Assembly (NCBI GenBank): GCA_947260005.1
Contig: CAMYOL010000076.1
Location: 1-64,000 of the forward strand
Length of the DNA stretch: 64,000 bases
DNA from: an uncultured Ectothiorhodospiraceae bacterium
GTDB lineage: Bacteria; Pseudomonadota; Gammaproteobacteria; UBA6429; Thiohalophilaceae
Reading direction: 5' to 3'
The position numbers and the translations under genes are program-made. Positions 36,735 through 42,973 of this stretch are shown piece by piece. Position 1 is the first letter of the stretch; each line of letters begins with the position of its first letter. Below the pieces are notes generated by a model, which was given only the letters and a program-made list of their open reading frames with translations, was not told the origin of the DNA and did not search any database.

Positions 36735-37023
36735 AACCATTAAATTCATTTTAAATTGTTATAAAAACAAAAATCGGAAAATACCGCCATGTAACATCTT
36801 AATCCCTTATTAAAATGATAATCGTTCCCCATATTATTACCACTAAGACGATAGCATAGGGGCGTTTGCAATATTACAATTGACGATTTCACTCTTACAT
36901 ATTTAAAATATACGTCGATTACGATGCCGTTAAGTATCCAGGGTAGGACGGCAAACATTTGAAGTGCCATAACTGAATAATAACATTTATTATGAAGTCT
37001 TTAGGATGGGGACCGTGCTCAAT

Positions 37024-37914
37024 ATGCACAAAATATTGATGATAGCATTGATTCTGACAGGGATGATTGGCTGTGCCAGTACGAGTCCTGTTCGATTTGC
37101 GGCGATTGGAGACACACCTTATTATGAAAGTGAGAATGAGCTAGCACTCCTATCAGAAACACTTGAGTCAATTTCAAAAAACAACATCCCATTTATCATT
37201 CATGTTGGTGACATTTTCCGGGGCTGGACACCTTGCTCTCCTGATCTATATAAATACAGAGCGGAGATTTTTAAAAAATCTCCCGTTCCACTTATAATTA
37301 CAATTGGTGACAACGAATTTAATGACTGTTTCGAACCCGAAGAGGCGCAAGCTTACTTTAGAGAGATCATACTCGGTACCCCACCTATTAATCAGATCTT
37401 AAAAGGTTATGACAATGATAAAGATTCAGTTCACATCACACGCCAGGTTGAGATGATAGAAAATTCGATCTGGAGTGCTAACAAAATTGATTTTATTATG
37501 TTTGTCCTACCTGATCTGCCGGGAAATTACCCGCTTAGTCCCGAACAGATATCGACCATCTTAGATGCGAACACCAAATTTATCCGGGATGGTTTTATAA
37601 AAGCGAAACACAATAAACGAGATGCCATGGTTCTAGTGACACACTCTGAGCCCGCCCTGTGTCGAGTACAAGGATGTAAACGCTTTAATTCGATGATCGA
37701 AAAAGAAATTAAATCTTTTGATAAACCCGTATTGCTGATTAACGGAAGCAACCACAGCCGTACCTTCGTGGATGGTGGGTATCAGGATATATCAAACTGG
37801 TGGCACCTGCGTCCCGGTAACACTCCAGAAGAACATTGGCCAGAAATATCGTTCTCATCGAAAACAAAACGATTTTCTGTTAAATGGATAATGGGACCCG
37901 CAGCGGAAGAATAA
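37024..37914 (+). CDS. metallophosphoesterase-like lipoprotein
   Basis: The 296-residue protein has a lipoprotein signal (GMIGC, about Cys 17), then calcineurin-like motifs: RFAAIGDTPYYESE (D for metal), FIIHVGDIFRGW (GD), TIGDNEFNDC (GDN.F.D, as in GDNE) and VLVTHSEPA. It probably hydrolyses phosphoesters in the periplasm or at the membrane. The start at 37024 is preferred for the signal peptide; an ATG at 37006 is in frame. It is a single gene with AT-rich surroundings. Confidence 0.78.
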   Translation: MHKILMIALILTGMIGCASTSPVRFAAIGDTPYYESENELALLSETLESISKNNIPFIIHVGDIFRGWTPCSPDLYKYRAEIFKKSPVPLIITIGDNEFNDCFEPEEAQAYFREIILGTPPINQILKGYDNDKDSVHITRQVEMIENSIWSANKIDFIMFVLPDLPGNYPLSPEQISTILDANTKFIRDGFIKAKHNKRDAMVLVTHSEPALCRVQGCKRFNSMIEKEIKSFDKPVLLINGSNHSRTFVDGGYQDISNWWHLRPGNTPEEHWPEISFSSKTKRFSVKWIMGPAAEE

Positions 37915-37964: not shown

Positions 37965-39482
37965 TTAAGTAGGTGGGAAATTTTGCATCGCATCCTCAAT
38001 ACCCGCATTTGCTTCGTCCTGGCTCATCAAAGGTCCACTCAGGACCGTCTGACCAGTCATTCGCCATATCGGTTTATTTGACTTAGTATCAACAATCGTC
38101 ACAACCAACGTTGCTTCGTGTTCAGTATCAACAGGAACATTGTTTAGAGGATCATTGCTGTCATCCATAGGGGTTAAACTCAATCCATCTTTGGTTTTCA
38201 AACCCAAGACATACTGAACATCGATATCGGCATAGGCATGATTCAATTGAAAACCTTTTTTCTTAAATGCAAAGGTCAATGCCGTACTTAATAACGCTTC
38301 CATATCACCCCGACGTTCTTTACTAACTTTTAGTGGTGTGATCTTGAAAGATTGATAATTCTCAAAACGGACCGTTTTATCAAAACCAACCTGTTTTTTT
38401 AATGCGGTGCGCTGACTTGGGCTGTTTTGTTCGAGCTTTAATTTAACAGTTAAATTATTCCGGGAGTCGGCTAAACGTAATGCTTCCTGATCAGCAATCT
38501 TACCGGCTTTATAGGCTTCATAAAGGGCATCATCAAAGGTTTTTCCGATACGACCAGAGGTCTGCCCCATCGCCTCTTTAATCTTATCTAAATCACCTTT
38601 TAAGATTAGTTCGGCAATATAAGGTGTCTTAATCATGACCTCTACAATGGCGACACGCTTGCCACTAAGCCCGGCGGCAAGTCGTTGTGACACAATAGCA
38701 TTCAAGTGCATGGACATATCCATAAATAGTTGTTTATGTGTCGCCTGCGGAAAAAAATTAATGACCCGATCCAGTGCCTGGTTGGCGTTGTTAGCATGTA
38801 AGGTCGCCAGACATAGATGCCCGGTTTCAGCATAAGCAAGAGCATGTTTCATGGTATCCATATCCCGGATCTCACCAATCATTATTACATCAGGCGCTTC
38901 ACGAAGCGCGTTTTTTAATGCGTTTTCATAAGACAACGTATCTAAACCAATTTCACGTTGATTAACTAATGATTTTTTGTGATGGTGAATAAATTCAATT
39001 GGATCTTCTATCGTTAAGATATGTCCTGGCTGGCTGGTATTACGATAATCAATCATCGAAGCAAGTGATGTCGATTTACCTGTACCAGTACCACCGACCA
39101 TGAGTATTAACCCGCGCTCTTCCATAATTAGTTCACGTAACGATTCCGGTAAACCTAATTGCTCAATAGAAGGAATCTCACTTTTTACATATCGTGCAAC
39201 CAGAGCGGGATCTCCACGCTGCTTAAATAAATTGATACGAAAGCGACCGATATTATTCAGGTAGATACCGAAATTCAATTCCAGCTCTTTCTCGAAAGCT
39301 TTTGATTGTTCGTCGTTTACCAGTGAATAAGCTAATTGATAAGCGATTTCCGGAGTAACCACATCTTTACCCAAAGACATGGGTTTGCCTTCAATTTTGA
39401 TGACCGGGGGAGCACCGACCGAGATATAGAGATCTGATGCTTGATGTTCAACCATTTTTGCTAACAGTTGCGTAAGATCCAT
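37965..39482 (-). CDS. PilT/PilU-like retraction ATPase fused to a DUF4136-like domain
   Basis: Residues 1-350 are a secretion-superfamily ATPase: Walker A GGTGTGKST near 131, HILTIEDPIEFIHHHKKSLV (Asp box), VIMIGEIRDMDTM (Walker B), and LATLHANNANQALDRVINFF (His box). The ATPase is of the PilU type that drives type IV pilus retraction. The last 140 residues do not belong to PilU. They read FDKTVRFENYQSFKI, VQYVLGLKTK, TLVVTIVDTKSNKPIWRMTG and AMQNFPP, the pattern of DUF4136, which is normally the whole of a periplasmic lipoprotein. No stop or frameshift separates the two. Confidence 0.88.
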   Translation of the reverse strand: MDLTQLLAKMVEHQASDLYISVGAPPVIKIEGKPMSLGKDVVTPEIAYQLAYSLVNDEQSKAFEKELELNFGIYLNNIGRFRINLFKQRGDPALVARYVKSEIPSIEQLGLPESLRELIMEERGLILMVGGTGTGKSTSLASMIDYRNTSQPGHILTIEDPIEFIHHHKKSLVNQREIGLDTLSYENALKNALREAPDVIMIGEIRDMDTMKHALAYAETGHLCLATLHANNANQALDRVINFFPQATHKQLFMDMSMHLNAIVSQRLAAGLSGKRVAIVEVMIKTPYIAELILKGDLDKIKEAMGQTSGRIGKTFDDALYEAYKAGKIADQEALRLADSRNNLTVKLKLEQNSPSQRTALKKQVGFDKTVRFENYQSFKITPLKVSKERRGDMEALLSTALTFAFKKKGFQLNHAYADIDVQYVLGLKTKDGLSLTPMDDSNDPLNNVPVDTEHEATLVVTIVDTKSNKPIWRMTGQTVLSGPLMSQDEANAGIEDAMQNFPPT

Positions 39483-39861
39483 ATTTCCCCTCCTGGTATG
39501 CTCAGTATTATTTTATATTACTAATATATCAAGGTCTTATCTGGCTAATATAACTGAGTATTGGAAAATATAATAGAGACAAATACTTAATTTACCTGGT
39601 AATACATGTTAATAATGCAAGCTACTAATATTTCAGGTCAGAATTCGCTTAGTTCGATATACGCAGTTAACTTAATTAGATTTTTGATACAGAATCATAA
39701 AAGTAGAATAGATTTATTGATCAGCATTCTATGCAATCTATAATATATTAGAAACTAAGTGAGCAGAACCTGTAGAACAATTTTAGCAAATACTTGATGA
39801 AATATAACAGTTTTCTAAGGAGAACCCCAAGAGTTCTAAACGATCTCTAGTAATGTTTTTC

Positions 39862-40939: not shown

Positions 40940-42973
40940 ATGCGGATGTTTACCTCATTCCTGAAGAGTAAGATCGCCAGACGGTTGGTCATCTATATTC
41001 TTTTATTCAGCTCAATGGTGACTGTGATATTGACAGCCATCCAATTGATGCAGGAATACCGTTACGACGTTTCACTAATTGAATCACGATTCAAACAAAT
41101 TGAGGAAACCAATAAAGCGGTTATCGAAGAAAATCTCTGGTTGATTGATATGCAATCTATTGCCTTAATATTTGAAGGTATTCTTCGTGACCGTGATTTT
41201 GAGTATCTGGAAATTATAGATGAAAAAGAACAAATTCTGATCGCAAAAGGTAGTATACCGGAAGGTCATATACGACAAACAAATATTAATCTTTCCTACG
41301 AGAAAAATGGAACAACCTATCCATTAGGTAGACTGAAAGTAGTGGCGACTCTTGAACATGTCTATCAACATCTTTTTGATACTGTTCTGATAATTTTGTT
41401 TAATCAAGCAGTTAAAACTTTTCTAGTATCATTGTTTATCATCGCCATTGTGTGGAAGCTTATCACTCGCCATCTAAACAGTATTAGTGATTATGTTGTT
41501 AATCTTGATCTCGGTGAAAGTCCAAAGGAATTTAAGTTAGACCGTTTTGAAGACCGTTGGTCTAAAGATGATGAACTAAACCGGGTAGTGGATTCTCTTA
41601 ATATGATGAGAAAAGAATTATACCAGTCATATCGGGATATCGAGCATCAATCAACTCATGATCACCTGACTGGCTTACCAAACCGTCATCTACTTGAGCA
41701 GCGTCTTAAATATGAGTTATTACAAAGCAGTCGCCGTAAACGCTATGGGGCACTGTTATTCCTTGATCTCGATAATTTTAAATTATTGAATGACTCATTA
41801 GGTCATGTCGTAGGCGATGAAGTGTTATGTCAGGTCGCGCATCGTTTCGAAGTGGTTGTACGCAAAGGCGATACTTTAAGCCGTGTTGGTGGTGACGAGT
41901 TTTTAGTCCTGCTGACTATGTTGTCATCTGACAGTAGTAGGGCGGCCCAGGAGGCATACGACATTGCACAGAAATTACGCCAGCAATTGAATATGGAAAT
42001 TAATATTGGCAGCCACCAATACAGGGTGACAGTGAGCATCGGTATTGAGCTTTTTCTGGATGAGCCGGAAAATTTCGAGACGATCCTGAAACATGCAGAT
42101 AATGCCATGTATCAGGCAAAAGCAGATGGTCGTAATACAATTCGTATGTACCATTCCAAAATGCAGGAGGCAGCAGATAATCGCCTGGCAACTGAGCGTA
42201 ACCTGATTGGAGCAATCAATAAACATGAGTTTGAACTTTATTACCAACCAAAGGTTGACCTGAACAGACAGATTGTCTCTGCTGAAGCGCTGATCCGCTG
42301 GGTTGAACCAGGTGGAGAAGTGATATCACCCATCACTTTCATTAATATATCGGAGGAATCAGGTCTGATTATACCTATAGGCGAAGAGGTATTCAGAATG
42401 GCATTTCAGTACGTAGCAGATAATTTCAGTTTATTGAATCGTGCAGGATTAAGTGATTTCGCTATCAATGTATCACCACGCCAGTTTTCCGATGTGGATT
42501 TCATTAAAACCATCATTTCTGAAATAAGTAAGTCAGGACTTGAACCAAGTTTATTCACCCTGGAGATTACTGAAGAGGCAATGGTGAGAAATATTGATGA
42601 TACCATCGAGGTTATGAATATATTGAAACGTCAGGGATTCAATCTTTCTATTGATGATTTTGGAACCGGATATTCTTCGTTACGCTATCTCAAAGATTTC
42701 CCGTTGAACGAGTTGAAAATAGATCAGTCTTTTGTTAACACGATTACCGAAAATAGTGAGGACGAGGCAATCGTTTCTTCGATTATTCTCATGGCAAAGA
42801 ATCTTGATCTTGATGTTATAGCTGAAGGAGTTGAAACCGAACAGCAATTTGATCTACTAAAGAAAAACGGTTGCGAACTTTTCCAGGGATACTTGTTCTC
42901 AAAACCAGTAAATCACATCGACTTTTTACAGTTACTCGAAAAACAAATTAGATCGAAGATTCATTCAGTTTGA
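40940..42973 (+). CDS. membrane GGDEF-EAL protein (c-di-GMP synthesis/degradation)
   Basis: The 677-residue protein has a membrane segment at about 12-33, a periplasmic sensor region to about 145, a second segment at 146-170 and then a HAMP-like link. The GGDEF domain (STHDHLTGLPNRHLLEQRL) has an intact VGGDEF site near residue 317. The EAL domain has SAEALIRWVEPGG near 448 and IDDFGTGYSSLRYLKDFPLN near 570, so both activities could be functional. The sensor region probably reads a periplasmic signal, perhaps through the binding protein encoded divergently 74 bases away. Confidence 0.9.
   Translation: MRMFTSFLKSKIARRLVIYILLFSSMVTVILTAIQLMQEYRYDVSLIESRFKQIEETNKAVIEENLWLIDMQSIALIFEGILRDRDFEYLEIIDEKEQILIAKGSIPEGHIRQTNINLSYEKNGTTYPLGRLKVVATLEHVYQHLFDTVLIILFNQAVKTFLVSLFIIAIVWKLITRHLNSISDYVVNLDLGESPKEFKLDRFEDRWSKDDELNRVVDSLNMMRKELYQSYRDIEHQSTHDHLTGLPNRHLLEQRLKYELLQSSRRKRYGALLFLDLDNFKLLNDSLGHVVGDEVLCQVAHRFEVVVRKGDTLSRVGGDEFLVLLTMLSSDSSRAAQEAYDIAQKLRQQLNMEINIGSHQYRVTVSIGIELFLDEPENFETILKHADNAMYQAKADGRNTIRMYHSKMQEAADNRLATERNLIGAINKHEFELYYQPKVDLNRQIVSAEALIRWVEPGGEVISPITFINISEESGLIIPIGEEVFRMAFQYVADNFSLLNRAGLSDFAINVSPRQFSDVDFIKTIISEISKSGLEPSLFTLEITEEAMVRNIDDTIEVMNILKRQGFNLSIDDFGTGYSSLRYLKDFPLNELKIDQSFVNTITENSEDEAIVSSIILMAKNLDLDVIAEGVETEQQFDLLKKNGCELFQGYLFSKPVNHIDFLQLLEKQIRSKIHSV

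Follow-up and report, generated by a model that had tools for sequence, protein, structure and literature searches.

A natural fusion of a PilU-like ATPase and a DUF4136 domain in one genus of Thiohalophilaceae

One frame, two domains

Retraction ATPases of the PilU type are cytosolic, whereas most DUF4136 relatives carry signals for export. How a domain of the second kind came to lie behind a motor of the first, and what it might do there, is the question raised by a gene at positions 37965-39482 (reverse strand) of the window, i.e. the whole 64,000-nucleotide stretch of DNA analysed here. The original prediction had seen in this region a single uninterrupted frame for an ATPase and a ~140-residue DUF4136 domain ending FPP, and had offered two readings of it, recruitment of the domain to the cytosol or recent fusion of two separate genes. 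We found by open reading frame analysis, Pfam and TIGR01420 that the gene does encode such a fusion, 505 aa long, running without a break from an ATG (39480-39482) to a stop (37965-37967) and ending FPPT. An AGGAGG resembling a ribosome binding site (39489-39494, reverse strand) sits six bases 5' of the ATG, and sequence comparison revealed AGGAGA at the equivalent place in a second genome of the same genus (G002; the window's own genome is G000, and G001 and G003 are the other genomes of the genus). Our preferred reading, which we hold with moderate confidence, is that the product acts as an accessory PilU-type retraction ATPase carrying its C-terminal DUF4136 domain in the cytosol.

Residues 1-350 (38433-39482, reverse strand) form a PilT/PilU-family ATPase. 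The TIGR01420 (PilT/PilU) model scored 413 bits over residues 3-342 (cut-off 319.1), the Pfam T2SSE model matched residues 78-272 (E 1.3e-40), and the closest solved chain by sequence was PilU 9n32 (E 1.1e-111). In an alignment of 30 ATPases, K136, S137, E204 and H229 all occupied invariant columns. We take residues 130-137, including K136 and S137 (39072-39095, reverse strand), to be Walker A, E204 of the sequence GEIRD (38871-38873, reverse strand) to be the catalytic glutamate of Walker B and H229 to be the His box residue; judged from these columns, the nucleotide sites of the fusion ATPase are intact. Walker A, Walker B and His boxes are named for this family in a passage of PMC6762196, where AIRNLIRE is given as a PilT motif absent from PilU. 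At the columns of this motif, the PilT of the window's genome (L004) reads AIRNLIRE and the fusion YIAELILK. A midpoint-rooted tree of 55 family ATPases separated PilT from PilU with 100/100 support and placed the fusion and its G002 counterpart with the latter, where their fully supported branch (length 1.03) was distinct from canonical PilU. In a wider tree, also midpoint-rooted, of 50 ATPases that included rows from 29 loci of the class, the pair stood alone (branch length 0.75) with no resolved sister group, and the closest unfused ATPases were up to 59% identical. The PilU-like character originally proposed for this half thus held up: as in PilU, there is a full ATPase core with invariant nucleotide-site residues and without AIRNLIRE. 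Unlike PilU, the fusion sits by itself on a long branch in both trees, does not lie beside pilT (a separate pilU adjoins pilT in this genome) and ends in an additional DUF4136 domain of 140 residues in the position of the short tails of others. Thirty ATPases were read from 29 class loci, which hold part of the class matches; past the same point, 29 of them continue into a C-terminal tail of 11-71 residues and the remaining one into a tail of 3 residues. These tails, whose place the DUF4136 domain occupies, are often acidic. Because 29 of these 30 have such tails, a domain tethered at this point seems compatible with the motor. In G001, a 504-residue PilU-like ATPase (contig C31; L076:6078-7592) has a Pro/Glu/Ser-rich extension of ~140 residues at its N-terminus.

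The DUF4136 domain and its predicted location

A linker without a stop codon (residues 351-365; 38388-38432, reverse strand), whose 15 residues are all identical in G002, leads into the DUF4136 domain (residues 366-505; 37968-38387, reverse strand). On the full protein, the DUF4136 model PF13590 scored 52.8 bits (gathering score 32.8; E 8.1e-14) over residues 366-504, covering profile positions 4-152 of 152, and residues 345-505 alone gave 56.6 bits (E 5.3e-15). An AlphaFold2 model of residues 351-505, made from an alignment of 58 sequences that included the fusion itself and two G002 pieces, had a pLDDT of 78 and a pTM of 0.72 and displayed five strands and two helices. A Foldseek search with this domain model returned first 4l8n, a Parabacteroides PDZ-domain protein (E 1.6e-8), and then PelC chains from 9.6e-7 (5t11_K). 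Structure comparison with the domain model matched 4l8n (Z 14.6, 146 residues, 9.4 Å), PelC 5t11_K (Z 12.8, 125 residues, 3.4 Å), TraT 9fs5 (Z 11.7, 144 residues, 3.9 Å), the solved DUF4136 protein BT2437, 4f54 (Z 11.6, 126 residues, 5.2 Å), FlgT 3w1e (Z 10.0, 120 residues, 3.2 Å), CsgG 4q79 (Z 9.5, 124 residues, 4.0 Å) and LptE 4rh8 (Z 8.2, 113 residues, 4.2 Å); all these comparisons concern the monomer fold, and a family missing from the match list is not thereby ruled out. The sequence profile of the domain alignment matched 4f54 (4.9e-6), 4l8n (7.4e-5) and three further entries at E 0.4-0.9. As modelled, the fold is the DUF4136 fold, common to a set of envelope proteins (PelC, TraT and CsgG), so the structure prediction that had been proposed as a check upheld the family assignment. 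In a model of the full-length protein, residues 353-372 were below pLDDT 50 and the DUF4136 part, which two alignment rows reach, was poor (ten-residue block averages of 36-68 from residue 371), and for this reason neither packing nor docking of the domains was read from it.

The best-scoring relatives of the fused domain are lipoproteins of the same family, at ~26% identity. Like DUF4136 lipoproteins in general (PF13590; solved example 4f54), the fused domain is complete by profile and predicted fold; it differs from them in being placed behind an ATPase, with no signal peptide or lipobox and without the glycine-rich insertion of many relatives. With PelC, the lipoprotein that forms a dodecameric outer-membrane ring in Pel export, it shares the monomer fold, but sequence identity is 8-13% and the lipobox is absent. 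TraT, CsgG, FlgT and LptE are envelope proteins that are likewise similar in fold, whereas in the fusion a motor of the cytosol bears this fold.

A simple pattern detects a lipobox in 50 of 58 DUF4136 relatives, and either a lipobox or a hydrophobic N-terminus is present in 56, in agreement with the contrast drawn originally between exported relatives and a cytosolic motor. In the fusion, no cysteine, lipobox or hydrophobic stretch lies between the ATPase and the DUF4136 domain; the sole cysteine (C224) and the highest 19-residue hydropathy mean (1.33) are both located in the ATPase. Residues 331-393 contain no ATG, GTG or TTG codon, and M394, already inside the domain, is the only one up to residue 400. 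From the lack of a signal peptide before the domain, the single cysteine, the low hydropathy and the missing start codons, we infer that the fused domain stays in the cytosol with the ATPase, which fits the first reading of the original prediction, that the domain was recruited there. It is highly improbable that an internal start additionally yields the domain as a protein of its own: a promoter-like match does occur at 38383-38355 (reverse strand), in a scan that gave 4 matches in total against 7.6 in shuffles, but the stretch free of start codons extends into the domain, and with its one cysteine in the ATPase the protein has no lipobox to offer ahead of the domain.

Distribution and age of the fusion

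The search in relatives suggested by the original prediction revealed the same junction in G002. There, the fused frame opens with the start codon on contig C21 and continues without interruption to residue 446, at the contig end (95% identity), and contig C200 holds the final 88 residues and the stop (93% identity); the 87 bases common to both contigs differ at 3. Pfam recognised DUF4136 in both of these partial pieces, each under the gathering score (19.9 and 31.6 bits), and ~140 bases 5' of the gene were also alignable between G000 and G002. The two versions differ at 163 of 1338 bases and, within codons 361-446, 29 of the 39 differences fall at third positions. An assembly artefact joining two genes is an extremely unlikely explanation, even though the assemblies are drafts and contig C16 of G000 does carry a PilU-like gene and, ~14 kb from it, one for a DUF4136 lipoprotein: the junction is in frame and unbroken in two species that differ to this extent and largely at third positions, no stop codon separates the parts in the assembled sequence of either (G000, G002), and elsewhere the window has matches in further genomes of the genus. 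On the other side, the short G002 contigs with the fusion (5.4 and 3.1 kb) come from an assembly with 7% contamination, which we count against the accessory-PilU reading.

Comparison of G000 with G002 gave a dN of 0.017, a dS of 0.69 and a dN/dS of 0.024 for the ATPase part, zero amino-acid changes with a dS of 1.10 over 15 codons for the linker, and a dN of 0.049, a dS of 0.91 and a dN/dS of 0.053 for the DUF4136 part (G002 contigs C21 and C200 joined). The low dN/dS values indicate purifying selection on both halves, and a junction common to two species at a dS of 0.7-0.9 and a dN/dS of 0.02-0.05 argues for a fusion that is maintained and not recent. The second reading of the original prediction, a recent fusion of two separate genes, is contradicted by these values and by the long, fully supported branch of the ATPase. 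The sequences suggest instead that the fusion either arose before the two lineages parted or passed from one to the other at a time remote enough for these silent changes to build up. Its dS (0.69-0.91) is lower than that of three other G000/G002 gene pairs (1.55, 1.75 and 2.12; a fourth, C55 against C151, was left out at 34.6% identity, with no dS). Nucleotide identity to G002, however, is 86% for the fusion, which falls within the 69-90% of other stretches of the window (8 matches), and we therefore draw no conclusion on horizontal transfer from the lower dS.

The same comparison bears on whether the domain is a passenger, folded and without a role, behind an ATPase that acts as an ordinary PilU. 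The narrow distribution described below and the tails of other PilU-like ATPases, which vary widely in length and sequence at this place, would be compatible with such a passenger. However, decay is what would be expected of a useless 140-residue domain, whereas its dN/dS is near that of an exported DUF4136 lipoprotein pair from G000 and G002 (0.043 over 122 codons, dS 2.12), and we therefore regard a passenger as improbable.

When the C-terminal part was searched in 96 relatives, five matched, namely G000, G002 and three genomes with free-standing 198-residue frames. Within the family, the domain lies behind this ATPase in 2 of 40 genomes (G000 and G002, both drafts), which we also count against the accessory-PilU reading; no fusion was found in G001 (95% complete), in G003 (only 70% complete) or in 36 family genomes outside the genus. 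PilT/PilU-type matches (E 1e-80 or better) occurred in 38 of the 40 family genomes, many of which are incomplete, and any DUF4136 match in 20. DUF4136 matches were obtained in 61 of 369 genomes of the class, where the window's alone lies in an open frame of at least 500 residues, and at 1e-6 in 98 of 398 genomes of the phylum, where, among the matches listed (to E ~1e-8), four besides the window's lie in frames of more than 400 residues. Profile scans of these 40, 369 and 398 genomes, which are overlapping sets, yielded no third fusion, for the 398 among the matches listed. Twelve other DUF4136 hits in long frames, the four from the phylum and eight further ones, were inspected, and in 11 of them an export signal directly precedes the domain, as a lipobox-like cysteine 4-33 residues before it in ten and, by eye, as a hydrophobic stretch ending SGAC in L187; L190, a hit below the gathering score, has no export signal close by. 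The ATPase profile had zero matches in these 12 loci. Scanning the GTDB contig collection with residues 330-505 returned only the two G002 contigs, the scan being one of exact 8-residue patterns that may miss distant fusions and may omit the window's own genome, and no relative of the fusion was found in a viral collection.

We also considered whether once-adjacent genes had been joined. No DUF4136 was found near PilU-like genes in 19 regions of 8-13 kb selected from among the class ATPase matches (0/19, E 0.01), nor was there a neighbour pair in 63 further loci that have DUF4136 and lack a PilT-type gene (mostly with 1.5-kb flanks, some overlapping), and on this sample such an origin was rejected. 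Tandem triplets of PilT/PilU-type ATPase genes are present in 6 of the 19 regions (L160 and L163-L167, from G219, G273, G158, G150, G364 and G369). In both species, another PilU-like gene shares a contig with a gene for a DUF4136 lipoprotein, at a distance of ~14 kb in G000 (C16, L088) and ~10 kb in G002 (C392), a loose linkage of the two families.

Possible roles of the tethered domain

The window's genome encodes PilB (849.5 bits) and PilQ (515.5 bits), both above cut-off, and elsewhere a tandem pilT-pilU pair, and on this basis it probably has a type IVa pilus machine. It contains in all four PilB/GspE-like and six PilT/PilU-like ATPases, among them a further PilT-like pair on contig C20 (L005 and L006) that is 40% identical to the fusion ATPase and sits on long branches. 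From what is known of the family, the accessory ATPase that we favour would, like PilT and PilU, assemble into a homohexamer and would work with PilT at the base of this machine. The passages of PMC6821130, PMC6762196 and PMC13142100 that deal with PilU describe a hexamer dependent on PilT, and the simplest model offered in PMC6762196 places PilU beneath PilT. More tentatively, six tethered DUF4136 domains might serve the motor as a platform for binding or as a second ring, and in this way stabilise the hexamer or dock a partner and so tune PilT-dependent retraction. The regulation of pilus retraction that the original prediction had in mind is thus a possible role. We count against this accessory role that no pilus-related neighbour of the fusion exists in the window.

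The boldest form of this idea, a two-tier motor in which an envelope fold of the PelC/TraT/CsgG type, moved into the cytosol, makes a second ring beneath the hexameric ATPase, we consider rather unlikely. If true, it would amount to a built-in brake, clamp or docking collar replacing a separate regulator. Rings of twelve are reported for PelC in the relevant part of PMC12141448 and rings of ten for TraT in that of PMC11733297. According to the same passages, the PelC ring owes its stability to PelB contacts and to acyl chains anchored in the membrane, and TraT without its lipidated helix is monomeric; that both rings lean on lipid anchors counts against a ring of the fused domain, which has none.

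The monomeric state of truncated TraT (PMC11733297) also agrees with another possibility, which we rate as less probable than not, that the domain is a flexible monomeric adaptor bringing the ATPase to a particular pilus machine, place or partner with no action on the motor itself. The linker is predicted to be flexible (residues 353-372, pLDDT below 50), and with four PilB/GspE-like and six PilT/PilU-like ATPases in the genome targeting could matter. LptE, GNA1162 and FlgT, which have the same fold, work largely via docking to other proteins. Against an adaptor, no candidate partner adjoins the fusion gene.

Whichever way the domain works, its attachment has consequences for both families. 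An excerpt of PMC5192318 gives the function of DUF4136 as unknown, and in PMC4111624 a model so named is tabulated as lantibiotic-associated; attachment in nature to a motor whose mechanism is known offers a handle on the role of the domain. The fusion is equally a natural probe of what the free C-terminus can bear in PilU, whose action through PilT is called a key open question in a section of PMC6762196. A piece of an envelope-protein family, now apparently intracellular on a motor, was gained and kept in at least two species of one genus. No such PilU fusion was found in literature titles and abstract openings, a scope that leaves most subscription papers and InterPro architectures aside, so prior notice is possible.

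The fusion gene stands alone. Downstream lies a convergent gene with a Metallophos match; upstream, 579 bases separate the fusion from the end of the next gene on the same strand, which has a solute-binding-protein match. Beside the fusion in G002, on the opposite side from the Metallophos gene of the window, is a remnant similar to that gene (contig C21; L082:1513-1648, against window positions 37006-37914), broken by a stop and a frame change, and the metallophosphatase-like gene and the fusion may have moved together. The other flanking genes are not common to G000 and G002. Two genes from the fusion, the window encodes a CHASE5-GGDEF-EAL protein (40940-42973), and a link between c-di-GMP and the fusion motor is conceivable.
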